Shown here: positions 1-10,176 of the stretch, piece by piece
How positions within the stretch are numbered: position 1 is the first letter of the stretch
Layout of the letters: every line of letters starts with the position of its first letter
Notes under the pieces: generated by a model
Told to the model about the DNA's origin: nothing
The model's database searches: none
Seen by the model: only the letters and a program-made list of their open reading frames with translations
Position numbers and translations under genes: made by a program
NCBI RefSeq assembly: GCF_015207245.1
Contig: NZ_JADEXF010000045.1
Coordinates: 1-10,176, forward strand
Origin: Nostoc cf. edaphicum LEGE 07299
GTDB taxonomy: Bacteria > Cyanobacteriota > Cyanobacteriia > Cyanobacteriales > Nostocaceae
Length of the DNA stretch: 10,176 nucleotides
Direction of reading: 5' to 3'

Positions 1-2618
1 CTTCTAACATTTCTTCTAGCCGCAGAAGTTTAGCTGAATTATGTTGCTCTAATGTCGCCTGCTTCAAATATTGGGCTGGGTGATTGCAGATTTGTTTGAG
101 TTTGATTAGCAAAGCCAAAATCATCCCCCGGCGTTGCAATCCTTCAGCAGATTCTATCTCTACTAAAGATTGTTCTACAACTTGTTGATAAAGTGCAGCT
201 TGTTCACCAGTTAGACCGCAAAATACGGTCATTTCTTGCTTATCTGGTAAATCTTGAATGATGTCGCGATCGCTTTTCAATCGCCGCAGTATAAATGGTT
301 GCACTAATGAACGTAATTGAGTCAAAGAAGCCGTATCACCATACTTTTCAATTGGCATGGCAAACCGCCTCTGGAAAAATTGCTTATTCCCTAAATACCC
401 CGGATTCAGAAAATCCAAAATAGACCAGAGTTCTTGCAGTCTATTTTCTACTGGTGTCCCCGTCAACGCAATCCGAAATGTCGCTTCTAATTCCCGCACT
501 GCTTTTGACTGCTTCTAAAAAGGCTTTACCTTTTGGTCGTTTGTCACCGTGATATTGCAAAATTTTCAGGTTTGGTGCAAATTTATTGACTTCCCTTTCC
601 CAGTTACCTAAAACAGAAGTTGGACAAACTAATAGTGTTGGATTTTCTAGTGCATCTTGTTCTTTGAGATGTAGCAGAAAAGCAATGAACTGGATAGTTT
701 TACCGAGTCCCATATCGTCGGCAAGACACGCCCCCAAGCCCCAACGTTCCAAGAATGACAACCAAGCAGCGCCACGTTCTTGATAAGGTCGTAACTGCCC
801 TTTGAAGCCTGTTGGTGTGGGCAAAGGTGCGATCGCTTGATTATTACTTAACGCCCCAATCAACTCTTGCAATGCCCCAGATGCCTCAAAGCTAACCACT
901 GGTAATTTTTCAATTACTTGAGTATCGCCTGTACTGAAACGCAAGGCATCTTCCAAAGAAAGCGCCATTTGGTCTTTGCGAGTGGTAAAAAATGTTTGGG
1001 CTGTCTTGATATCTTGGGGTCGCAATTCTACCCACTCACCGTTAATTTCTACTAGCGGACTATTTAAAGCCACAAGTTTATCAAACTCAGCTTTAGAAAT
1101 AGTTTGTCCACCGATTGCCAATTGCCACTGGAAATTTAGTAGACTTTGTAACCCTAAACGTCCCTGCTTTGTCTTTGGGGTTTCAGCGGTAATTTTCAAA
1201 CCCAAACGGTTCGCCCATCCTTCACGATTCGCTAAACTGGGAGGCAAAATTACTCCTAAACCACTGTCTTCCAACCTCCAAGCTACAGCTTTGATAAACT
1301 CATAAGCTTGAATGGGGGTGATCCGAGAAGATTGGGGATATTCGGTTTCAAAGCTGGGTGCGATCGCTGGATATAATCTGGAAGCTACTCCCAAACCTCG
1401 CAAGAATGTTTCTTGTGGTTGGTCAATTGTCCGATTTTCATAAACCAATCTTTCAACTGGATTGTTCCAAATAGTTGCTGCATCCACTAAAAACTCTGGA
1501 TTGTCAGCCGCTTGCAAAAAATACGCCAATGTCCAATCTGTTTCGCCAGACTCTGGAGAACGCAGTTGAAAACAGGTACGAAATAGACTTTTAAGAGTTA
1601 ATTGGTATTGTAGCGGCATAGTCCAAGCCTTCAATGCCGCTTCCAGTCTTTCCACTTCAATTGCATCTGCATTAACTATATGAGATGCACTAGTTAAGGC
1701 TGGCAACCACTGTCGCACCCCAGACGGTAAAGATGCAATCGCCTTAGCTTCAATTGGAGGTTGCGAACCCATCATTTCTCGCACTTGGGCATCTATCGTA
1801 CTGTTGAGAAATCCCAAAAGTAATTCTTGAGGTTCTGTGGGAAAGTCTACATAAAGTAGAGATTGGGAAAAATCCTCCCCAGTCTCCAATCCCTCTTGAT
1901 AAGTGCGACAAACCAACGGTATATTCCCAGAAAATCTTTCTAGGCGAGTTCCATCTACTGCACTGTCTAAAAGTACTCGCCATTTGGCAGCAAATGCACC
2001 ATCTGATTGTCGATCTATTGTTGGTAAAAACTTACACCTAGAGATTAAATCTAAACTCCATCGGGCAACCTGCGACCAAAAGCGTAAATCTCCACCCAAA
2101 AAAGCATCTTCCCCTTTCGCAGCATTTAGGGGAATCGCAGCGAGAAATTTTACTGCTTCGCTGGGGTTGAGACAAAAACCCTCAACTCGCCACGGTTGCA
2201 AATATTGCGGGAAGTCTGTATTTTCGCCCAAGCTGGCAGAATGTACAGGGAAAATCGCTGTTGTTCCTTCATCACTGCTTTCTGGGATATAAGTTGGTAG
2301 GGCGATGATTTGGGAGTGCATTGGCAAACTGATCTCAGGCGCACTGGCGGCTTTGCGCGATCGCCCAGTAGTTGCGATGGCTCCGCCAACGCCAGGGGCA
2401 AACGCAACTTGAGGTTTTTGGATGAAGTTGGTAATTGCCATGTTCTGCGATCGCAACCACTCACTCAACTCAACTGATGTCATTGCCAATGGATGTACTG
2501 GGATATTTTCAGATCCATTAGACTCGAAATTCACTCGTGGCGATCGCCAAGTTTCCCCCCAAATAAATAAACAACCATTTTGATTTTTTAGTAACCAATT
2601 ACAGTGTAAAATCGCCAT
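1..2618 (-). pseudogene. SNF2-family DEAD/DEAH-type helicase, frameshifted by internal deletion, C-terminus beyond window
   Basis: This is a Swi2/Snf2-type ATP-dependent DNA translocase of the long cyanobacterial kind. Translation starts at the ATG at 2618 and is open to a TAG at 441. The N-terminal part (about residues 1-590) is the helicase-associated region. Motif I, DDMGLGKT, lies at residues 634-641 with K640 as the nucleotide-binding lysine. Motif Ia follows, with CPTSVLGNWE and QYHGDKR. After the residues FLEAVK the frame switches near 503-514. The downstream frame is open from 514 to position 1 and reads motif III (ALTGTPVEN), then [15 protein letters not shown] and KQICNHP, all typical of SNF2 proteins. 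The intervening stretch, where the DEAQ box (motif II) should lie, is missing. In the first frame only about 19 nonsense residues follow FLEAVK. Without motif II and the second RecA lobe the product should be inactive. The remaining C-terminus (motifs V and VI) lies outside the window. An assembly error at this point is possible. Confidence 0.9.
503..514 (-). other. Deletion/frameshift junction in the SNF2 helicase gene
   Basis: On the minus strand the 12 bases AAGCAGTCAAAA can be read as the end of the upstream coding frame (GAA GCA GTC AAA, residues EAVK). They can also be read as the start of the downstream frame (AAG CAG TCA AAA GCA GTG, residues KQSKAV), which continues into VRELEATF. 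Both readings suit the family, so the junction probably marks recombination or slippage between two short direct repeats with loss of the DNA between. The size of the loss is inferred at roughly 45-50 codons from the usual spacing between motifs Ia and III. It is not a multiple of three. Confidence 0.7.
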
Positions 2619-2761
2619 TTGCTAACTACTCAGATTTTCCCAAAACTCTAGAATTAAAATCGCAAATATTCTACTTTTTGCATCTTCTCAAGAAGATTTA
2701 TTGCCCAACTTTCTCATATAATAAATATTTAAGTAAATATTCCACATAAACATTGTTAATA

Positions 2762-3307
2762 ATGAATTTTCCCCTAATTAAAGTCTTAAAAAATGGGATG
2801 TTAGTGGAACTGGATTATATGCATACTCAAGAAAAAGAGGTTGTAAGATCGTTACTCAATGTTGTAATTGTTGAAGGTAAAACTTATCCCCAAAAGCAAC
2901 CTCTATCTCCTACAGAATTTTCAGCTTACTGGTTAAGCAAGGATGCCTTTGTTGTCAGGACATCTGTTGTAGATCCTACACACAAGCCAAAAGAAATATT
3001 AGGGGCGTTTTATTTAAAGCCAAACTTTCCCGGTCGGTGTAGCCATATTTGCAACGCTGGTTTTATTGTACAACCTGGGTTACGCGGTCAAGGTTTAGGA
3101 CGGTTCATGGGAGAGGCTATGCTTTCGATCGCAGCAAACCTGGGCTACGAAGCAGTAATGTTTAATTTGGTCTTTGAGACTAATATACCTTCAATTACAC
3201 TTTGGCAGTCGTTAGGATTTGAGATTATTGGGCGAATTCCGGGCGCGGCGAAGCTAGAGAATGGGCAGGTGGTAGACGCGCTAATCTTGTATCGCACTTT
3301 GCGTTAA
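2762..3307 (+). CDS. GNAT-family N-acetyltransferase
   Basis: This 181-residue protein belongs to the Gcn5-related N-acetyltransferases, which move the acetyl group of acetyl-CoA to an amine. The substrate cannot be told. The acetyl-CoA-binding motif A lies at about residues 99-126, with the pyrophosphate-binding signature RGQGLG at 108-113 preceded by FIVQPG. Motif B lies around residues 133-158, with FNLVFETN and LWQSLGFEIIGR. The length is normal for a single-domain GNAT. The ATG at 2762 is preferred over the in-frame TTG at 2753, because the sequence MNFPLIKV is a natural N-terminus and the TTG has no ribosome-binding site. The gene stands alone. It is divergent from the helicase pseudogene, with a 143-bp AT-rich spacer, and lies about 100 bp before pnp in the same direction. 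Confidence 0.88.
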   Translation: MNFPLIKVLKNGMLVELDYMHTQEKEVVRSLLNVVIVEGKTYPQKQPLSPTEFSAYWLSKDAFVVRTSVVDPTHKPKEILGAFYLKPNFPGRCSHICNAGFIVQPGLRGQGLGRFMGEAMLSIAANLGYEAVMFNLVFETNIPSITLWQSLGFEIIGRIPGAAKLENGQVVDALILYRTLR

Positions 3308-3390
3308 ACGACTTGTCTATCTTTGTATGTACTAGAAGTCAGCCATAGGGCATAAATGTTAGGATTGCCACAGAAAGAGAATAGCGAAAG

Positions 3391-3397
3391 AGAAGGA
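3391..3397 (+). promoter_or_regulatory. Ribosome binding site of pnp
   Basis: The purine-rich AGAAGGA sits 11 bases before the ATG at 3409 and supports that start. No clear promoter can be assigned in the 101-bp spacer after the acetyltransferase gene. Confidence 0.55.
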
Positions 3398-3408
3398 AAA
3401 AAAACTGA

Positions 3409-5565
3409 ATGGCAGAAGTTGATAAGTCAATATCCTTCGATGGAAGGGATATTCGACTGAAAGTAGGCCTACTAGCTCCCCAGGCAGGTGGGTCGGTTTT
3501 GATAGAATCAGGGGACACATCAGTTTTAGTGACGGCTACGCGATCGCAAGCCAGAGAAGGCATTGATTTTCTTCCCCTTACTGTAGATTATGAAGAAAGG
3601 CTATATGCCGCTGGTAGGATTCCCGGCGGGATCATGCGGCGCGAAGGTCGTCCACCAGAAAAAACAATTCTCACCAGCCGTCTTATAGACCGTCCCATGC
3701 GTCCCTTGTTCCCGTCATGGTTGCGGGATGACTTGCAAATTATTGCCTTAACGCTGTCGATGGACGAGTTAGTTCCACCCGATGTGTTAGCAGTTACAGG
3801 CGCTTCCATCGCTACCCTGATTGCCCAGATTCCTTTTAATGGACCAATGGCAGCAGTGCGGGTTGGTTTAGTGGGAGATGATTTCATTATTAACCCCACT
3901 TATGCAGAAACTGAAGCTGGAGATTTGGATCTGGTAGTAGCAGGTTCACCACATGGCGTGATCATGGTGGAAGCGGGAGCCAATCAGTTGCCAGAGCGAG
4001 ATATTCTTGAGGCGATTGACTTTGGTTATGAAGCAGTGCGGGACTTAATCAAAGCGCAGCAAGATTTAATTGCAGAATTGGGTCTAGTAATAGTGCAAGA
4101 AGCACCACCAGAAGTAGACCAAACGCTAGAAAATTATATCCGCGATCGCGCCAGCGGCGAGATTAAGAAAATCCTGTCTCAATTTAGTTTCACCAAACCC
4201 CAACGCGATGCAGCTTTAGATGTCGTCAAGGATGAAATTGCCGCGACGATTACCGAACTGCCAGAAGAAGACCCAATTCGAGTTGCTGCAACTGCAAATA
4301 AGAAGGCACTTGGTAACACTTTTAAAGATATTACCAAACACTTCATGCGGCGACAAATCATCGAAGATAACGTCCGCGTTGATGGTCGTAAACTCGATCA
4401 AGTGCGTCAGGTTTCTTGTTTAGTTGATGTCTTACCAAAGCGAGTCCACGGCAGCGGTTTATTTAACCGGGAACTAACTCAGGTATTATCCACTTGTACT
4501 CTGGGTACACCTGGGGATGCTCAAAACCTCAACGATGACATGCAGCTAGATCAGCACAAGCGTTATCTGCATCATTACAACTTCCCGCCGTTCTCAGTTG
4601 GTGAAACCAAGCCAATGCGGGCCCCAGGAAGGCGTGAAATTGGTCACGGGGCATTGGCAGAACGAGCGATAATACCTGTGTTACCGTCCAAAGAACAATT
4701 TCCCTACGTGATTCGCATCGTATCGGAAGTACTTTCCTCCAACGGTTCCACCTCAATGGGTTCAGTCTGCGGTTCCACCCTCGCCCTGATGGATGCTGGT
4801 GTACCAATTATCAAACCCGTTAGTGGCGCGGCAATGGGTCTGATTAAGGAAGGCGACGAAGTACGAGTCCTGACGGACATCCAAGGCATTGAAGACTTTT
4901 TGGGCGACATGGACTTCAAAGTTGCCGGGACGGATACCGGGATTACCGCCTTGCAAATGGATATGAAAATCTCCGGTTTGTCTTTGGAGGTTATTGCCCA
5001 AGCCGTCCACCAAGCCAAAGCAGCCCGATTGCACATTCTGGAGAAAATGCTCGCCTGCATTGACACGCCACGGACTGAAACCTCACCTTATGCTCCACGT
5101 CTGTTAACAATCAAGATTGATTCAGACATGATTGGTTTGGTCATCGGGCCTGGAGGCAAGACTATTAAGGGAATCACAGAGGAAACTGGTGCAAAAATTG
5201 ACATCGAAGATGATGGCACCGTGACAATTTCCGCTGTGGATGAGAACAAGGCGAAGAGAGCCAGAAATATCATCCAAGGCATGACCCGCAAGTTGCACGA
5301 AGGAGATGTCTATGCAGGACGCATTACTCGGATTATACCGATAGGTGCATTTGTGGAATTTTTGCCTGGAAAAGAAGGCATGATTCACATATCTCAACTA
5401 GCTGACTACCGCGTTGGCAAAGTAGAGGATGAAGTAGCGGTGGGCGATGAAGTGATTATCAAAGTGCGCGAAATTGATAACAAAGGTCGGATTAATCTCA
5501 CCCGCTTGGGTATTCACCCAGATCAAGCAACAGCAGCAAGAGAAGCAGCGGCGGTGAATCGGTAA
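3409..5565 (+). CDS. pnp: Polyribonucleotide nucleotidyltransferase (polynucleotide phosphorylase)
   Basis: PNPase degrades RNA 3'-to-5' by phosphorolysis, releasing nucleoside diphosphates. It can also add 3' tails, and in cyanobacteria it is considered the main tailing enzyme. It acts in the cytoplasm as a ring-shaped trimer. The 718-residue protein has the full family layout: a first RNase PH domain (about 10-145), an all-helical linker (about 240-320), and a second, catalytic RNase PH domain (about 325-545). A KH domain follows (about 563-625, with the GxxG loop as GPGG at 580-583), then an S1 RNA-binding domain (about 631-701). Active-site signatures are visible: [10 protein letters not shown] around 405-414, [10 protein letters not shown] around 447-456, and the acidic pair D496 and D502 in [13 protein letters not shown]. 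These match the E. coli catalytic D486 and D492. The length is typical. No rpsO lies upstream, unlike the enterobacterial operon, so the gene appears monocistronic, ending in hairpins. Confidence 0.98.
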
Positions 5566-5574
5566 CTCGATTTG

Positions 5575-5604
5575 GGATTTTAGATTAGATTAAATCTAAA
5601 ATCC
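5575..5604 (+). terminator. Hairpin just after pnp, possible terminator or mRNA stabiliser
   Basis: A perfect 12-bp stem (GGATTTTAGATT paired with AATCTAAAATCC) with a 6-base loop starts 10 bases after the pnp stop codon. There is no T-run after it, so it is not a classical intrinsic terminator. It may protect the 3' end or act together with the next hairpin. Confidence 0.5.
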
Positions 5605-5629
5605 GCGATGCCTATCGTGAAGGCATCGC
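5605..5629. repeat. Second hairpin, GCGATGCC repeat type
   Basis: An 8-bp perfect stem (GCGATGCC and GGCATCGC) with a 9-base loop directly abuts the previous hairpin. Its GC-rich arms resemble the short palindromic repeats common in intergenic regions of Nostoc-type genomes. It could be part of a composite terminator for pnp. Confidence 0.5.
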
Positions 5630-5660
5630 CGTATGCTTCTCTAATTTGACAAATTACGAA

Positions 5661-5834
5661 TTATTTTAACGACTTTTCTAGTGTTTTCGGCTCTGGTAGA
5701 GGTTGACCGTCAGTCAAAGATGATTCAATCAGCATTTCTAAAACTTCTTGAGCATTTTTGAAAGCTTTTTTGTAAGTATCTCCGTGAGTATGACAAAATC
5801 CCCATTCAGGAAGACTCACAACAAAACACTCATA
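5661..5834 (-). pseudogene. HicB-like antitoxin, C-terminal fragment without start
   Basis: The minus-strand frame from about 5834 to the TAA at 5661 gives 57 residues. They include CFVVSLPEWGFCHTHGDT, then KNAQEVLEMLIES and LPEPKTLEKSLK. This is the HicB fold of cyanobacterial type II antitoxins: the core strand segment SLPEWG, a helix with NAQEVL, and the LPEP tail. The usual first strand (about 10-15 residues with the start methionine) is missing, and no hicA toxin gene is next to it. Upstream sequence belongs instead to a NACHT gene fragment whose stop codon overlaps the first codons, so this is a remnant created by a deletion that joined two genes. The family call rests on sequence recall and is fairly firm. 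Confidence 0.6.
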
Positions 5835-5987
5835 GTTGTTTCATCAACCGTCTGGCTTTATCTCTGGCATCACTCACTGGTATACTTTGCAGATATTTAG
5901 TAAAGATTGCTTCCAAATCATCCGCATAGATAATGTTGCCAGCTAAACCTTTTTCACTGGTTTGCATAAGATAAGCAACTTGACGCA
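5830..5987 (-). pseudogene. NACHT-family NTPase gene, post-ATPase fragment (third remaining piece)
   Basis: The minus-strand frame gives about 52 residues, including RQVAYLMQTSEKGLAGNI, YADDLEAIFTKYL and DARDKARRLMKQL, then TGA at 5830-5832. This matches the helical region that follows the ATPase core in cyanobacterial NACHT (STAND) proteins. That region normally continues into a segment ending near a conserved FVHRTFLEYF motif, which is absent here. The upstream end is cut exactly at an inverted-repeat unit (5988-8279). When that unit and one GACGCA copy are removed, the frame joins without error to the piece ending MLR at 8286. The downstream end runs into a hicB remnant. No complete product is possible. 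Confidence 0.72.
5982..5987. repeat. Target-site duplication GACGCA, left copy
   Basis: This 6-bp sequence directly precedes the left inverted repeat and is repeated directly after the right one at 8280-8285. The uninterrupted NACHT gene would need only one copy to stay in frame. Confidence 0.8.
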
Positions 5988-6003
5988 CTGGAGTTTAGAC
6001 TAA
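5988..6003 (+). repeat. Left terminal inverted repeat of the insertion unit
   Basis: CTGGAGTTTAGACTAA is the exact reverse complement of 8264-8279, 16 of 16 bases. The next bases on the two sides differ, so the repeat ends there. Confidence 0.85.
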
Positions 6004-6034
6004 GCAGCAAAAAATGACCTAGCAGTGCTAAGTT

Positions 6035-6246
6035 GATGAAATACAATCTTCAAGCGTAAAAATCTTTGGATTCAAATATTTCGAGCATGGCGGATGCCCG
6101 GTATGCCAAGGATTAAGAAAGGATTGTCGGGAATCTGAGCGCACAGGTTTGGTTTTCTGCCGCGAAATCTCCGTTAATCCTCCAAATTATATCTACCGTG
6201 GCCAGGGCAAACGTATCTTGTCAACAAGAACCTCTCAATGTCAATA
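6035..6246 (+). pseudogene. Primase/plasmid-replication-like protein, N-terminal zinc-binding fragment
   Basis: The plus-strand frame ending at the TAA at 6244-6246 contains FKYFEHGGCPVCQGLRKDC, then ESERTGLVFCRE and NYIYRGQ. The CxxC, C and FC spacing looks like the N-terminal zinc-binding module of large cyanobacterial primase/helicase-like replication proteins. In those proteins, as I recall them, a similar YIxRGQ segment leads into a long catalytic part. Here homology stops at YIYRGQ, exactly where a nested inverted-repeat element begins (6202). The frame has no start codon of its own. An ATG at 6037 reads MKYNLQA and then TAA in another frame, which suggests that a one-base change near 6058 separated the start from the body. 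The gene is thus broken at both ends. The family assignment is from memory of similar proteins and is moderate. Confidence 0.45.
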
Positions 6247-6401
6247 AATCTCAAAATAATCGCATTAATTCCCGCTTATTGACAAGATTTTAAGCGATCG
6301 CCTTAACCCCTGAAAAACCAATCAAACAATAAATTCTTGTTCTGCCGTTAATACACTAATTAAGGTTTTTGTCAAGATTAATTAAGATGCGTTTGCCCTG
6401 G
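6202..6401. mobile_element. Nested 200-bp MITE-like or IS-derived element
   Basis: The ends are CCAGGGCAAACGTATCTT (6202-6219) and the reverse complement of CCAGGGCAAACGCATCTT (6384-6401), matching at 17 of 18 positions. Weaker symmetry continues inward (TTGTCAACAAGAACCT against TTGACAAAAACCT). The interior is AT-rich with a HIP1 site near 6295 and no coding potential. No target duplication is visible. Unrelated truncated genes lie on its two sides, a primase-like N-terminus on the left and an inverted OpuAC-like N-terminus on the right. It may be an internally deleted insertion sequence sitting at a rearrangement junction. Confidence 0.68.
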
Positions 6402-6608
6402 CAAATCAATCTTACCAGTTCCCAACAGTGGGAATATCTGCTTGTGAGATCCTTCCCTTACCTCAACCGTGTAGCCAAGTTCCAACACCATCTGAATCAA
6501 AGCTGCTTTGACTTGATAGAACGACAAGCCAACCTGTCCCATTACTACTGTGCGTCGGGACTTACTGTTAGTCTGATCCCAGCTTTTGCTAAGGACTATG
6601 CCACTCAT
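6378..6608 (-). pseudogene. OpuAC/ProX-like glycine-betaine-type substrate-binding protein, N-terminal fragment
   Basis: From the ATG at 6608 the minus strand encodes MSGIVLSKSWDQ, then VGLSFYQVKAALIQMVLEL, GYTVEVREGSHKQIFPLLG and TGKIDL. This resembles the first lobe of OpuAC-type binding proteins. In those, a helix pairs with a strand reading GYxVEV, and a segment of the form IFPxLGxGEIDL precedes a conserved tryptophan-containing ligand loop. The frame then enters the nested element (PGQTHLN, stop at 6378), so about three quarters of the protein is missing. There is no signal peptide, so it could be a cytoplasmic homologue rather than a transporter subunit. It starts 41 bp after the monooxygenase gene in the same direction, which suggests they once formed an operon. 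Confidence 0.5.
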
Positions 6609-6649
6609 GGGAAGTGTAGACGCGCTTAGCACTGGATCAGCCCTACCAG

Positions 6650-6988
6650 CTATATTTTTGCAGGCTCAATACTTCTGTACACCTTATAAGAATGTACGTC
6701 CTGTGAGATTTCCTTACCAACACTTTCTATTTTTTGCCGCAGGACGGTGGCTTCGGTGTCTTGAGTAAATGCCTGCCATGCCTCTTCTGTTGCCCATTGA
6801 GCATAATTTACTATCCTAGTGCCGTCCAGACTCTTATGGAAGTGCGATGACACCAAGCCAGGACGATATTGAACCCACCGTTCTACCTCGCTTATAATCA
6901 CATCAACTAATTTCTGTTGTTGCTCTGGCTCTACAGTAAACATGATGATTACTGTGAAGATTTCATTATTTTCTGAAATACTAGGCAT
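6650..6988 (-). CDS. Antibiotic biosynthesis monooxygenase (ABM) family protein
   Basis: This 112-residue protein fits the ABM family, small dimeric alpha+beta-barrel (ferredoxin-like) proteins. The family includes cofactor-independent quinone-forming monooxygenases and many members of unknown substrate. The first strand is FTVIIMFTV (11-19). A helix follows with QQQKLVDVIISEVE. The family signature PGLVSSHFHKSLDG (43-56), followed by TRIVNYAQW (57-65), is clear, and a last strand lies around VHSYKVYRSI (98-107). The length is normal. The ATG at 6988 has a GGAG ribosome-binding site 7 bases upstream (TGGAGAATTAA). It lies inside the inverted-repeat-bounded unit, 241 bp downstream of the SDR gene and on the same strand. 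The two may cooperate in oxidation and reduction of a small aromatic or polyketide-like compound, but that is inference from proximity. Confidence 0.82.
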   Translation of the reverse strand: MPSISENNEIFTVIIMFTVEPEQQQKLVDVIISEVERWVQYRPGLVSSHFHKSLDGTRIVNYAQWATEEAWQAFTQDTEATVLRQKIESVGKEISQDVHSYKVYRSIEPAKI

Positions 6989-7229
6989 TTAATTCTCCAA
7001 CAAAAAGGAATACAAGAGAAACGGCGAGGAATTCCATGAATAGTGCTATTCTAGCCACAAGCGCTCACTTCCAAAAACGAGAGGAATGGTGGTTTTTGAG
7101 TTGTAGTTGTGGTAAACAATAACTCTACTACGGAAGGCCCTCTTTATTTTGGCGAAGGTATTGACTATTTGTACCTTATTACCCACTTATGCAAGAACTC
7201 TATTGAATCATGTCGAAATAGCTTCTAAC

Positions 7230-8024
7230 TCAAAGCATTTGAACTCCACCACTCACAGGTAAATAAGTTCCAGTAATAAATCTCGCTTCCTCAGAGGCTA
7301 ATAGTAAAATCGCACCTGCAACATCCTCTGGTAGTCCATTTCTTCGCAAGGGTGCCTGCTGTGCAGCAGCATCTTGCGCCTGCTGGGGCAACGATCCCGT
7401 AGCATCAGTGAGGGTCAATCCTGGTGCAACGGCGTTGACCCGAATCCCTTGCGGACCTAATTCGAAGGCAAGGCTTCTGACGAAAGCATCTAAGGCAGAT
7501 TTGGCGGTACTGTGGGCAGAAAGACCTTCGCCGGACGTTCGAGACGCACCACTGCTAACCACAATGATGCAACCTCGTTTCTGTTCAATCATCGATGGAA
7601 CAACTGCTCTACAGGGAAAAAATGTCGCTTTGACCTCTCCAAGCAACTTGGCTTCAAAATTTTCCCAGGGAGTATCGACAAACAAAGACACAAAAAAAGC
7701 AGCGTTGGCATTAGCGATGAGGGTATCAATCGTGCCAAATTTATCTACAACCTGTTGTACCATTGTCTCAACTTGCTGCAGCTCTCTTACATCTGCTTTG
7801 ACTGCCAGAGCTTTGCCCCCGCTTGATATAATTTCATCCACGACCTGCTGAGCTGCCGCTTCACTACTGTAGTAGTTGACTCCAATCGCCGCACCGTGAC
7901 GAGCGAACAGTTTAGCGGTTGCGGCACCAATTCCACGGCTAGCTCCTGTAATTAGAACCACACGATTGTTCATCAACTTAGAAATATCTGAGGTTGGGTT
8001 GGTATCAGAATGTATGGTAACCAT
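7230..8024 (-). CDS. Short-chain dehydrogenase/reductase (SDR), with His in place of the catalytic Tyr
   Basis: This is a 264-residue classical-type SDR with a Rossmann fold. The nucleotide-binding TGASRGIG lies at residues 26-33, and ADV at 77-79 contacts the adenine ring. IANANA at 103-108 stands where NNAG is usual. The catalytic serine is in VVSSGA (155-160). The next motif reads SAHSTAKSAL at 169-178, so the usual YxxxK is HxxxK with H171 and K175. NAVAPGLTLTD and the C-terminal TGTYLPVSGG follow as expected. NAD(P)(H) binding is therefore likely, but the proton-donor tyrosine is absent. Substrate is unknown; FabG-like ketoreductases are the nearest general type. The start at 8024 is supported by AAGGAG seven bases upstream. 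It is the first gene of the cargo, followed by the ABM gene on the same strand. Confidence 0.88.
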   Translation of the reverse strand: MVTIHSDTNPTSDISKLMNNRVVLITGASRGIGAATAKLFARHGAAIGVNYYSSEAAAQQVVDEIISSGGKALAVKADVRELQQVETMVQQVVDKFGTIDTLIANANAAFFVSLFVDTPWENFEAKLLGEVKATFFPCRAVVPSMIEQKRGCIIVVSSGASRTSGEGLSAHSTAKSALDAFVRSLAFELGPQGIRVNAVAPGLTLTDATGSLPQQAQDAAAQQAPLRRNGLPEDVAGAILLLASEEARFITGTYLPVSGGVQML

Positions 8025-8028
8025 ATCA

Positions 8029-8036
8029 ATCTCCTT
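8029..8036 (-). promoter_or_regulatory. Strong ribosome binding site of the SDR gene
   Basis: On the minus strand GAAAGGAGATTGAT precedes the ATG at 8024. The AAGGAG core is close to the ideal anti-16S complement and fixes the start. Confidence 0.65.
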
Positions 8037-8214
8037 TCAGGTTGTTAATTTCGTTACGGGAATAGCTAAGTACCCATTATTTTTGTTTTTCGCACATTTT
8101 GGTGCGTTTGCCTTGAAATATATGGTGTCCGGGGTATCGAGCCGAGATACCAAGTGCCCGCCCGTTGGCAGATAGATGAGAGTTGGTGGTTCTTCTCTCA
8201 GAATCTGTCAAAAG

Positions 8215-8236
8215 GGGTCTGTGTTCAATCAGACCC
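8215..8236. terminator. Hairpin inside the right end of the insertion unit
   Basis: GGGTCTG (8215-8221) pairs with CAGACCC (8230-8236) over an 8-base loop. On the plus strand it is followed by the pyrimidine-rich TCTATTCTTTTCTTTG. On the minus strand it is followed by CCTTTT. It could block transcription entering the cargo from the NACHT side or act as part of the element end. Confidence 0.4.
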
Positions 8237-8263
8237 TCTATTCTTTTCTTTGCCTTTACCCAT

Positions 8264-8279
8264 TTAGTCTAAACTCCAG
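8264..8279 (-). repeat. Right terminal inverted repeat of the insertion unit
   Basis: TTAGTCTAAACTCCAG is the exact reverse complement of 5988-6003. It abuts the GACGCA flank at 8280. Confidence 0.85.
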
Positions 8280-8285
8280 GACGCA
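8280..8285. repeat. Target-site duplication GACGCA, right copy
   Basis: Directly adjacent to the right inverted repeat and identical to 5982-5987. On the minus strand it reads TGCGTC and supplies the codon CGT of the interrupted NACHT gene. Confidence 0.8.
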
Positions 8286-8442
8286 ACATTGCCTGTTTAT
8301 CTTTATAATCAATAATGTCCAGACATTCATCAGGCTTTAAATTGCGTCCGTCGTCCCAATTATGCAGCAAAACTTCTGAAGCCTCTTTATACAGTTCGCT
8401 TCTATCTCTAGGTAATTCTCGCCAGACTTTAGTCCTCAAAAT
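8280..8442 (-). pseudogene. NACHT-family NTPase gene, second remaining piece (just after the ATPase core)
   Basis: The minus-strand frame reads LALILRTKVWRELPRDR, then SELYKEASEVLLHNWD and IDYKDKQAMLR, and is cut at the insertion unit. In cyanobacterial NACHT proteins the PRDRxELY...VLLxxWD segment follows the ATPase domain. The piece is in the same frame as the N-terminal fragment upstream, separated only by a TAG at 8467 and a short palindrome. The whole P-loop/Walker B NACHT core that should lie between them is gone. After MLR the frame enters the inverted repeat and stops at a TAG within it. Confidence 0.7.
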
Positions 8443-8459
8443 AAGGGCTAAAGCCCTTA
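8442..8459. repeat. Palindrome at the NACHT deletion junction
   Basis: TAAGGGC and GCCCTTA form a 7-bp stem around the loop TAAA. This sequence type (AAGGGCTTTAGCCCTT on the minus strand) recurs as a dispersed intergenic palindrome in cyanobacterial genomes. Here it sits exactly where the NACHT N-terminal part ends and the post-ATPase part begins. Confidence 0.6.
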
Positions 8460-8466
8460 CTACAAA

Positions 8467-8847
8467 CTACAAATCCGATTTTTTTGTGACACTTGCGTAA
8501 GTCCTATTAATATCAAAAGCCTGACCAAAAATTTCTTTAACCGACTTGTCACGGATAAATTTCTTGATATCTTCAGCATAATTTTGAATTTCAGCTTCAT
8601 CAAGTTTGCAACGAACCTTGAACTGCTGCTGCATTAGTTGCAAAAATTCGGTCAGCGCCATGACTACAGCTTTCTGAAGCGGTTCTTGCTTAAAGGGCGC
8701 GGTGACAGCATTATTAAAGATATGTTTGAGAAAATCTTTAGCGTAGTCCTTGACTAAATCTTTGAAAAATTCTTCGCTAATAATAGTTTTGACAAGAAAT
8801 CCAACCGCTTTTTGACCTATCCAGAGAGTGACCCACTCAACTATCAT
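8467..8847 (-). pseudogene. NACHT-family NTPase gene, N-terminal domain fragment
   Basis: From the ATG at 8847 the minus strand encodes 126 residues. They begin MIVEWVTLWIGQKAVGF and continue through FLQLMQQQF, CKLDEAEIQNYAEDIKKFI and SVKEIFGQAFD, ending in a TAG at 8467. This all-helical N-terminus is typical of large cyanobacterial NACHT (STAND) proteins, where it precedes the ATPase core. Bacterial NACHT proteins include characterised anti-phage systems. An upstream in-frame GTG at 8886 would add 13 residues, but the family normally starts near the IEW motif, so the ATG is preferred. The fragment may still be translated, but it lacks the NTPase and sensor regions. It is divergent from the Uma2 gene, with a 149-bp spacer. 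Confidence 0.75.
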
Positions 8848-8982
8848 ACTCACGCCTGCTAAGTGCTTGACTACGAGTATATACACCTGCCAGAGAAATC
8901 TTTCCAGATTTGTGGGTTTTTAACTTAAAAGCGATGCTGGCTGAAGATTTGTTAAAAATAACTAATATACTGTGCATGGATA

Positions 8983-8988
8983 TTAGGA
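8983..8988 (+). promoter_or_regulatory. Ribosome binding site of the Uma2 gene
   Basis: TAGGAG lies eight bases before the ATG at 8997. It selects this start over the longer in-frame opening from 8910. A possible -10 box, TATACT, lies at 8966-8971, without a convincing -35. Confidence 0.6.
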
Positions 8989-8996
8989 GTAATTTT

Positions 8997-9800
8997 ATGG
9001 TTCTACAAGTTAACCCCATCCAAAAAGAACCAATTGTTACTTGGGAAGCACTTCCAGCCGACTTCATTTTACCAGACGATCCAGTGGAAAATATTCAACA
9101 ACCTGCGATCGCTGCTGCGCTTACCGATGCTTTGGGAAGCACAGGACGCATCCAGCCTCAAATGCTGATTGGCTCTAACTTTGGACTTGTAGCCACAGTC
9201 AACAAAAAAATCGTTGTCAAAGCCCCAGACTGGTTTTACGTTCCTCAAGTGCAGTCTGTGGGAACAAATGTAGTTCGTCGCAGCTATACCCCAAATTTAG
9301 AAGGTGCTGCTGTGGCTGTAGTGATGGAATTTCTCTCAGATACAGAAGGCGGAGAATTATCAGTCCGTTCAACTTCGCCTTACGGGAAACTCTATTATTA
9401 CGAAAAGATTCTCCAAGTTCCAACCTACGTAACTTACGACCCTTACGAACCCAGTCTAGAAATACGATGCTTACAAAATGGACAATATACTTTGCAGCAA
9501 GCAGACGCTAATGGACGCTTTTGGATTCCTGAGTTAGAGTTATTCCTCGGAATTTGGCAAGGTGAAAGATTATGCCAAACTATGAATTGGCTGCGCTGGT
9601 GGGATAGAGAAGGAAATTTGCTGTTATGGAGTAGCGAACAAGCCCAACAAGAACGCCAACGTGCTGAACAGGAAAGCCAGCGTGCTGAACAGGAAAGCCA
9701 GCGTGCTGAACAGGAAAGCCAGCGTGCTGAACAAGAACGCCAGCGTGCTGATATATTAGCAGCTAAGTTACGTGAGCTAGGTATTGACCCTGATGCGTAG
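8997..9800 (+). CDS. Uma2-family (DUF820) restriction-endonuclease-fold protein with heptad-repeat tail
   Basis: This 267-residue protein belongs to the Uma2 family, a PD-(D/E)xK-type fold present in dozens of copies in many cyanobacteria, with no settled function. The likely metal-site residues are D78 in VKAPDWFY, E111 in VVMEFLSDTEGGE, and K131 in the KLYYYEKILQVP segment. The motif YVTYDPYEPSLE (144-155) and the tail WLRWWDREGNLLLW (198-211) are characteristic of the long cyanobacterial subtype. Residues 218-252 are five copies of a 7-residue unit (QERQRAE or QESQRAE), predicted to form a charged coiled coil. This is followed by a short ending, LAAKLRELGIDPDA. The catalytic core looks intact. 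It is the only gene on its strand between the NACHT remnant and the methyltransferase. Confidence 0.88.
   Translation: MVLQVNPIQKEPIVTWEALPADFILPDDPVENIQQPAIAAALTDALGSTGRIQPQMLIGSNFGLVATVNKKIVVKAPDWFYVPQVQSVGTNVVRRSYTPNLEGAAVAVVMEFLSDTEGGELSVRSTSPYGKLYYYEKILQVPTYVTYDPYEPSLEIRCLQNGQYTLQQADANGRFWIPELELFLGIWQGERLCQTMNWLRWWDREGNLLLWSSEQAQQERQRAEQESQRAEQESQRAEQESQRAEQERQRADILAAKLRELGIDPDA
9648..9752 (+). repeat. Five 21-bp tandem repeats encoding a heptad coiled coil
   Basis: Five in-frame units of 21 bp begin at CAA in positions 9648, 9669, 9690, 9711 and 9732. The three central units encode QESQRAE and are nearly identical at DNA level. The outer two encode QERQRA(E/D). Because each unit is a multiple of three, gain or loss of copies would change coiled-coil length without a frameshift. 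Confidence 0.9.
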
Positions 9801-9925
9801 GCGTAGTCCGCGCTTCTCTACGTTCGCGCAGCGTGTCGCAGACAGACGCTCCGCGTAGCTTGCTTGCTTCCCCGGAGGGGGGTATGGTTCGACTCCGCTC
9901 ATCAGCCGCTCAGTGACCATCGTAG
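9794..9925. repeat. Intergenic repeat island of short palindromes
   Basis: The stretch starts within the last codons of the Uma2 gene with GCGTAG units and is GC-rich compared with its surroundings. It contains GCGTAGTCCGCGCTTCTC, TCGCAGACAGACGCTCCGCG, the small hairpin CCCCGGAGGGG near 9870, and TTCGACTCCGCTCATCAGCC. These are of the types dispersed in many Nostoc-like intergenic regions. No coding frame is visible. It may end Uma2 transcripts by structure. Confidence 0.55.
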
Positions 9926-9991
9926 ACATCGCATAACCTAAACAAATGCTGGGAATAATAATTTTGGGACATCAGCACCAAAATTCATTCT

Positions 9992-10176
9992 ATGAAACAG
10001 CAAAAAAATCTGTTCAGCCATCTTACTGCGATCGAAAGAAGTTATCTATCATTTCCGGCACAGTTTTTATTAAATCAAAACCTTCTCCAAGGCAAAATAC
10101 TAGACTTTGGTTGTGGGTTTGGTAATGATGTTAAAATATTGCGCCAAAAAGGTTATGATATTATAGGCTATGACCC
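9992..10176 (+). CDS. SAM-dependent methyltransferase (class I), N-terminal part, runs off window
   Basis: The ATG at 9992 opens a frame that is still open at the window end, giving 61 codons. Residues 36-46 read ILDFGCGFGND, the glycine-rich motif I that binds S-adenosylmethionine. VKILRQKGYDIIGYD follows, where the acidic residue at the end of the second strand would contact the ribose. The preceding residues (HLTAIERSYLSFPAQFLL) form a helical cap. No clear Shine-Dalgarno precedes the ATG. The substrate cannot be inferred from this part. Confidence 0.78.
   Translation, partial: MKQQKNLFSHLTAIERSYLSFPAQFLLNQNLLQGKILDFGCGFGNDVKILRQKGYDIIGYD

Follow-up and report, generated by a model that had tools for sequence, protein, structure and literature searches.

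We analysed a stretch of 10,176 nucleotides from the cyanobacterium Nostoc cf. edaphicum LEGE 07299 (contig NZ_JADEXF010000045.1, positions 1 to 10,176; hereafter the window). Within a broken NACHT gene of the window lies a unit of 2,292 bp (5988-8279) in which a short-chain dehydrogenase/reductase (SDR) gene, an antibiotic biosynthesis monooxygenase (ABM) gene and several gene fragments stand between two ends that match those of an insertion sequence (IS). The features of the locus are as follows; L103-L107 denote five fetched relatives of the same genus, and L020, L021 and L023 are IS copies described below.

5834..5981, minus strand: NACHT-gene remnant downstream of the insertion, matching the relatives down to 5834
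5982..5987, no strand: left copy of the target duplication GACGCA, present once in L103-L107
5988..6003, plus strand: left terminal inverted repeat, CTGGAGTTTAGACTAA, identical at 16/16 positions to 8264-8279
5988..6070, plus strand: left IS end, matching L020, L021 and L023; in the parent, non-coding DNA after the transposase stop
6071..6205, plus strand: fragment of ~45 codons from the beginning of a long hypothetical protein of cyanobacterial plasmids; it sets in where the left IS end stops
6201..6402, no strand: nested repeat of ~200 bp resembling a miniature inverted-repeat transposable element (MITE), with 19-bp inverted ends GCCAGGGCAAACGTATCTT (95% complementary)
6378..6632, minus strand: 84-aa open reading frame (ORF), a fragment similar to glycine-betaine ABC transporter substrate-binding proteins
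6650..6988, minus strand: ABM-domain gene (antibiotic biosynthesis monooxygenase type), 112 aa, open frame (PF03992, E 2.6e-10)
7084..7163, no strand: dispersed repeat of ~80 bp present in many family genomes, with 68-bp pieces up to 99% identical in others of the family
7230..8024, minus strand: SDR oxidoreductase gene, 264 aa, open frame, AAAGGAG upstream of its ATG (PF13561, E 2e-58)
8165..8279, minus strand: right IS end, matching L020, L021 and L023; in the parent, the non-coding leader of the transposase gene
8264..8279, minus strand: right terminal inverted repeat, 16/16 versus 5988-6003
8280..8285, no strand: right copy of the target duplication GACGCA, identical to the left copy
8286..8466, minus strand: NACHT-gene remnant upstream of the insertion, matched by the five relatives to about 8422 and in frame with the rejoined part
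8467..8886, minus strand: N-terminal NNH2 part of the same broken NACHT gene (PF22734, E 2.4e-22)

The unit and its insertion site

The two terminal repeats were the sole exact 16-mer inverted pair spaced 30 to 3,000 bases apart in the whole window, and 60 shuffles of the window sequence yielded no such pair. A first-pass annotation of this DNA had described the repeats and the flanking GACGCA copies (5982-5987 and 8280-8285), the SDR gene, ABM gene and gene fragments inside the unit, and the lack of a transposase in any frame. Each of these points was confirmed, the genes and fragments by Pfam and tblastn searches. With four full-length parental transposases as queries, tblastn found nothing credible at the protein level within the unit (lowest E 4.8), and we therefore rejected a transposase hidden in another frame. 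At the DNA level, positions 8094-8119 matched the IS coding region of L023 at 23/26 bases in the opposite orientation (E 0.001), a match that may have arisen by chance.

Removal of the unit together with one GACGCA copy left 120 bases that aligned ungapped, and with a single GACGCA, to all five relatives, at 97.5% identity for L103, L104 and L106 and at 95.8% for L105 and L107. The rejoined protein of 109 residues had matches at E <= 0.001 in 169 of the 217 family genomes searched; among the matches listed, 18 genomes displayed 87-93% identity across the junction with no stop, and one further genome 76%. The exact restoration of the NACHT codons noted in the first-pass annotation was borne out by a continuous junction in 5/5 relatives, and the empty GACGCA site that it had suggested seeking in related strains was found there at base level. 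One of its refuting conditions, a 16-mer belonging to the NACHT gene itself, failed, as 0/5 relatives have the 16-mer at this place; a native NACHT-gene repeat as the source of the ends was rejected on the same grounds. The uninterrupted site in the relatives shows that the insertion is real and that it is derived in the lineage of the window genome.

The insertion site does lie in a NACHT gene, as first annotated, but that gene is a remnant with missing stretches, and a stop interrupts its frame at 8467. The 173 window bases outward of 5834 matched sequence lying a further 2.1-2.2 kb away in L103, L104 and L107, and had no strong match within the fetched stretch of L105 or L106. On the other side, the distance from the NNH2 part to the next matching piece is 84 bases in the window versus 1.16 kb in all five relatives. 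The gene is without about 1.1 kb and 2.1 kb on the two sides of the insertion site, and therefore is broken whatever the insertion did.

The parental insertion sequence and the cargo

The first-pass annotation could not name an element with ends of this kind; we matched them to IS elements that carry an NF041680 transposase. The 16-bp end was present at <=1 mismatch in 192/217 family genomes; its backward control pattern occurred zero to two times per strand among the genomes listed. Four plasmid-borne IS copies of ~1.5 kb (L020, L021, L022 and L023), each with one gene of 435 aa, were recovered from Nostoc C052, N. carneum NIES-2107, Calothrix NIES-22 and Nostoc CENA543. L020, L021 and L023 bear window-type ends with 0-2 changes and are full copies with the same ends and a transposase, which the first-pass annotation had advised looking for, while L022 resembles L021 but has lost the outermost bases of its left end. 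The L020 transposase scored 572.5 bits against NCBIfam model NF041680, above the curated cut-off of 440, and 59.3 bits against the IS701 model NF049999, below its cut-off of 170. No further IS701 model was among its matches listed at E <= 0.01. It shares with the IS701 family a Pfam DDE_5 domain and that weak model score. Taken together, these comparisons identify the parent as a ~1.5-kb IS with an NF041680-family transposase, distantly IS701-like. Elements of this type from Nostocales (for example on NZ_CP040275.1 and NZ_CP023281.1) resemble the window unit in their 16-bp ends, similar subterminal DNA and 6-7-bp duplications, and differ from it in carrying the 435-aa transposase. Matches to NF041680 above cut-off occurred in 17/53 genomes of the genus, and some match in 49/53, compared to 0/14 control genomes; potential helpers therefore exist. 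No relative of the transposase was found in viral contigs, and no paper on NF041680 in the open-licence literature.

Duplication length was surveyed at 61 loci, the window included, many of them picked for unusual end spacing, with direct repeats of >=5 bases counted. At 24/61 loci there were 26 repeat-flanked end pairs (again with that of the window), with duplications of 6 bp in 20 cases and of 7 bp in 6; L120, among the 6-bp pairs, is an end inside another end. A further 26/61 loci had an end pair without a duplication, and 11/61 had no pair at <=2 mismatches. The survey contains some overlap: L101 and L218 cover one and the same place, L114 and L219 are probably a single element, and no duplication was seen at any of these four loci. 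When flanks were displaced as a control, a direct repeat was seen in 1/603 comparisons. L245 showed one 4-bp repeat, outside the >=5-base count. Target duplications of the IS701 family are given as exactly 4 bp in part of PMC2266710, and the parent therefore does not fit IS701 in this respect. We rejected IS701 membership on both duplication length (6-7 versus 4 bp) and model score, which places the NF041680 IS copies outside the definition of their most similar family. An IS701-type element is described as common to N. azollae and its relatives in a portion of PMC4369082. As a separate observation, 23/26 target duplications had A as their final base when read on the strand listed, which may reflect a target preference.

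The two ends of the unit correspond to the parts of the IS that lie outside its gene. Homology to L020 covers IS bases 1-81 and 1399-1506, and homology to L021 bases 1-86 and 1394-1504, the coding region being 85-1392 in both. The left end was 82.7% identical to L020 (81 bp), 82.6% to L021 (86 bp) and 87.5% to L023 (only 56 bp); the right end was 86.1% identical to L020 (108 bp), 79.6% to L023 (108 bp) and 75.9% to L021 (116 bp). IS homology stops beside the coding limits, so that against L020 and L021 the exchange is precise to within a few bases. For L023 the left homology is shorter (1-54) and the right similar (1399-1503). Both non-coding IS ends are thus retained and the transposase gene is lost. 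The SDR and ABM genes have the same orientation as the transposase gene of the parent.

The cargo is of mixed affinities. The fragment at 6071..6205 had its best plasmid match by tblastn in Calothrix NIES-22 (53% over 45 aa, E 6e-9); no Pfam match above cut-off was found in the first 1,048 aa of that plasmid protein, only a sub-threshold match to KAP NTPase. Copies of the MITE-like repeat (6201-6402) were up to 93% identical over full length in other family genomes and weaker in plasmids. The 84-aa ORF had a best tblastn match of 46% over residues 27-77 (E 3e-6) and no Pfam match above cut-off. For the ABM protein, the best relative beyond its own 99% cluster was 83% identical among 77 database hits. 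Of 388 genomes of the class, 37 had an ABM match at E <= 1e-10, its own genome included; the strongest other match was 47% identical, and the highest identity, over a shorter stretch, was 50%. No ABM relative was found in viral contigs.

The SDR gene has a close relative in a Chroococcidiopsidaceae draft genome (L129), at 90.5% DNA identity over 825 bp and 92% protein identity. The 8.8 kb around this relative hold no ABM gene, no IS end at <=3 mismatches and no transposase. Of 158 SDR relatives found, 80 loci were kept and the best 8 of these checked, and in these 8 no ends, ABM gene or transposase were found beside the SDR gene. The first-pass annotation had held that the same cargo outside this context and free of the repeats would refute a transposition unit. 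Such a place does exist for the SDR gene in L129, but it does not refute a cassette, because captured genes must have a source; an SDR gene of the L129 type is a possible source of that in the window. Counted substitutions between the window and L129 gave a ratio of non-synonymous to synonymous change (dN/dS) of 0.11, which points to purifying selection on the SDR gene.

The catalytic motif of SDR enzymes is YxxxK, in which Tyr is the catalytic residue. The window protein is without this Tyr and has His171 in its place (HSTAK), aligned to the Tyr of 4rzh. At this position 96 of 120 close homologues have His and 2 another residue, while the pattern was not fitted in 22.

Origin of the unit

In its organization, the unit has the anatomy of an already known kind of cassette, the mobile insertion cassette. 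Passages of PMC3913671 and PMC3129680 describe MIC231 of Bacillus cereus and the qnrD mobile insertion cassette as having inverted repeats, a passenger gene replacing the transposase and a target duplication. Mobilisation of MIC231 in trans is reported in the former (PMC3913671, in part), and an excerpt of the latter states that an intact, related IS is able to activate such IS derivatives (PMC3129680). Like these cassettes, the window unit has identifiable IS repeats, no transposase gene and passenger genes (SDR and ABM), together with a target duplication and an empty site in relatives. In contrast to MIC231, whose ends come from IS231, its ends come from an NF041680 IS, and it holds two cargo genes plus fragments. 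A query of the open-licence literature for 'mobile insertion cassette' with cyanobacteri- returned a Bacillus plasmid paper only, and nothing on this unit.

Two other classes of element fit less well. MITEs with window-type ends (0-1 changes) and 6-bp duplications were found at L112:3979-4129 (151 bp) and L118:345-722 (378 bp); they share with the window unit the same ends, the 6-bp duplications and the lack of a transposase, but at 2,292 bp and with two open genes we rejected the window unit as a MITE. MITEs are documented for Anabaena sp. 90 (PMC3542288, in part) and treated in sections of a review (PMC10969869). A composite transposon was rejected since only ~85 and ~115 bp of IS are present at the ends.

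We consider it fairly likely that the unit derives, as a non-autonomous form built like a mobile insertion cassette, from an IS with an NF041680 transposase, and that it arrived at the locus in one piece. The transposase would come from an intact NF041680 IS located elsewhere in the cell and would cut and join the unit via its IS ends, such that the whole unit, cargo and ends together, would enter the NACHT-gene remnant. This account is favoured by the perfect repeats and by a 6-bp duplication, a length made by parental IS copies. Further points in its favour are the empty site in 5/5 relatives, the near-exact swap at the gene limits, purifying selection on the SDR gene, the open frames of both genes and the helpers present in the genus. 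Moreover, the flanks of the unit differ by 2.5-4.2% from the relatives and the ends and duplication are undecayed, so that gathering of the interior in place would need many recent events. The first-pass annotation had suggested a mobile insertion cassette or a transposon stripped of its transposase; the anatomy, the match of the ends to an IS and the empty site all agree with this, but no second copy of the cassette was found.

Several observations weigh against arrival as a unit. A single copy was found, and movement of the whole unit was not seen. No copy of the whole unit turned up in the 217 family genomes, for which two candidates were scored per genome, or in plasmids, where 25 records had a match and none covered 80%. 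The window genome itself, in an assembly of 997 contigs that is 72.7% complete, showed only fragments of NF041680 transposases (C81, C349), and its best matches to the ends were 75-84% identical. The 26-base match to the L023 coding region is unexplained, and the mosaic interior, in which a MITE-like repeat is nested, is likewise compatible with stepwise change in place. One of the transposase fragments of the window genome is a 707-bp copy (L010) with both end repeats and no duplication.

A less probable account, albeit one that retains some weight, is that a normal NF041680 IS inserted in the NACHT gene and that nested insertions, deletions and recombination later replaced its interior, leaving a relic that never moved with cargo. 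The nested MITE-like repeat and gene fragments favour such replacement, as does the frequency of broken IS copies (the 26/61 loci with an end pair and no duplication). That gutting in place happens is indicated by L242:376-3686 of genome G174, from the same family, a transposase-less unit of 3,311 bp that has perfect ends flanked by a duplicated GTCGCC. The 50 and 244 bp that it keeps from the IS match a full copy in that genome (L248) at 100% identity. A group II intron with its reverse transcriptase lies in the interior alongside other, partly masked DNA. The cut is away from the gene limits, with 51 codons of the transposase left, and the unit looks gutted in place. In the window unit, unlike in L242, the gene is cleanly gone at both limits and two open metabolic genes are present, and replacement in place needs several foreign pieces to arrive while the ends and duplication stay perfect. 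For these reasons we favour arrival as a unit over gutting in place.

L242 was the closest approach to the other cassettes with different cargo that the first-pass annotation had proposed seeking, and it answers to that description only in part. In this search the 16-mer was located in >=33 genomes and both ends were sought in plasmids; the end pairs fetched were a chosen part of all pairs, mostly of unusual spacing plus some ordinary ones. A unit of 7,888 bp at L117:397-8284, with perfect ends and an AGGTTA duplication, contains a broken NF041680-type transposase together with TnsA-like, integrase-core and TniB/AAA-like (Tn7-like) genes, and was for this reason rejected as a transposase-free cassette. 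Three more candidates were set aside: L101 has an end pair without a duplication and an FAD-binding/lactone-oxidase-like gene in two frames, L214 an end pair without a duplication and peptidase-like ORFs (by eye), and L209 is an IS split by insertion.

It is very unlikely that two IS copies flanking the cargo recombined, leaving one outer end of each, with the product then transposing or staying. The closest ends do differ among the matches listed, being G078 for the left (86%) and G062, G111, G129 and G149 for the right (86%), but a pure recombination product would be without a target duplication, and the duplication and empty site need joint transposition of both ends. Least probable of all is an assembly chimaera joined at IS ends, which are repeats, in a draft as fragmented and incomplete as this one, since the 6-bp duplication is shared by the two junctions, which rejoin to the sequence of the relatives, and the similar ends in the assembled part of the genome, at 75-84% identity, offer only short exact words for a misjoin.

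If the unit does move whole, a very common cyanobacterial IS is able to carry other genes without its transposase, and annotation would miss such cassettes because no gene inside looks mobile; if it does not, it is an ordinary relic. It is a tentative and rather doubtful extension that NF041680 IS of Nostocales spawn cassettes that move metabolic genes between distant cyanobacteria, and that the window unit could still be moved by a resident intact copy.

Other features of the window

Outside the NACHT region, a helicase-like gene was recognized by eye on the minus strand at 2-2618, as two overlapping frames (441-2618 and 2-499). The frames look as if shifted near 500, which may reflect an error in sequencing. 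A 296-aa ORF (8910-9800) has repeated AEQESQR heptads towards its end, at 9640-9760.

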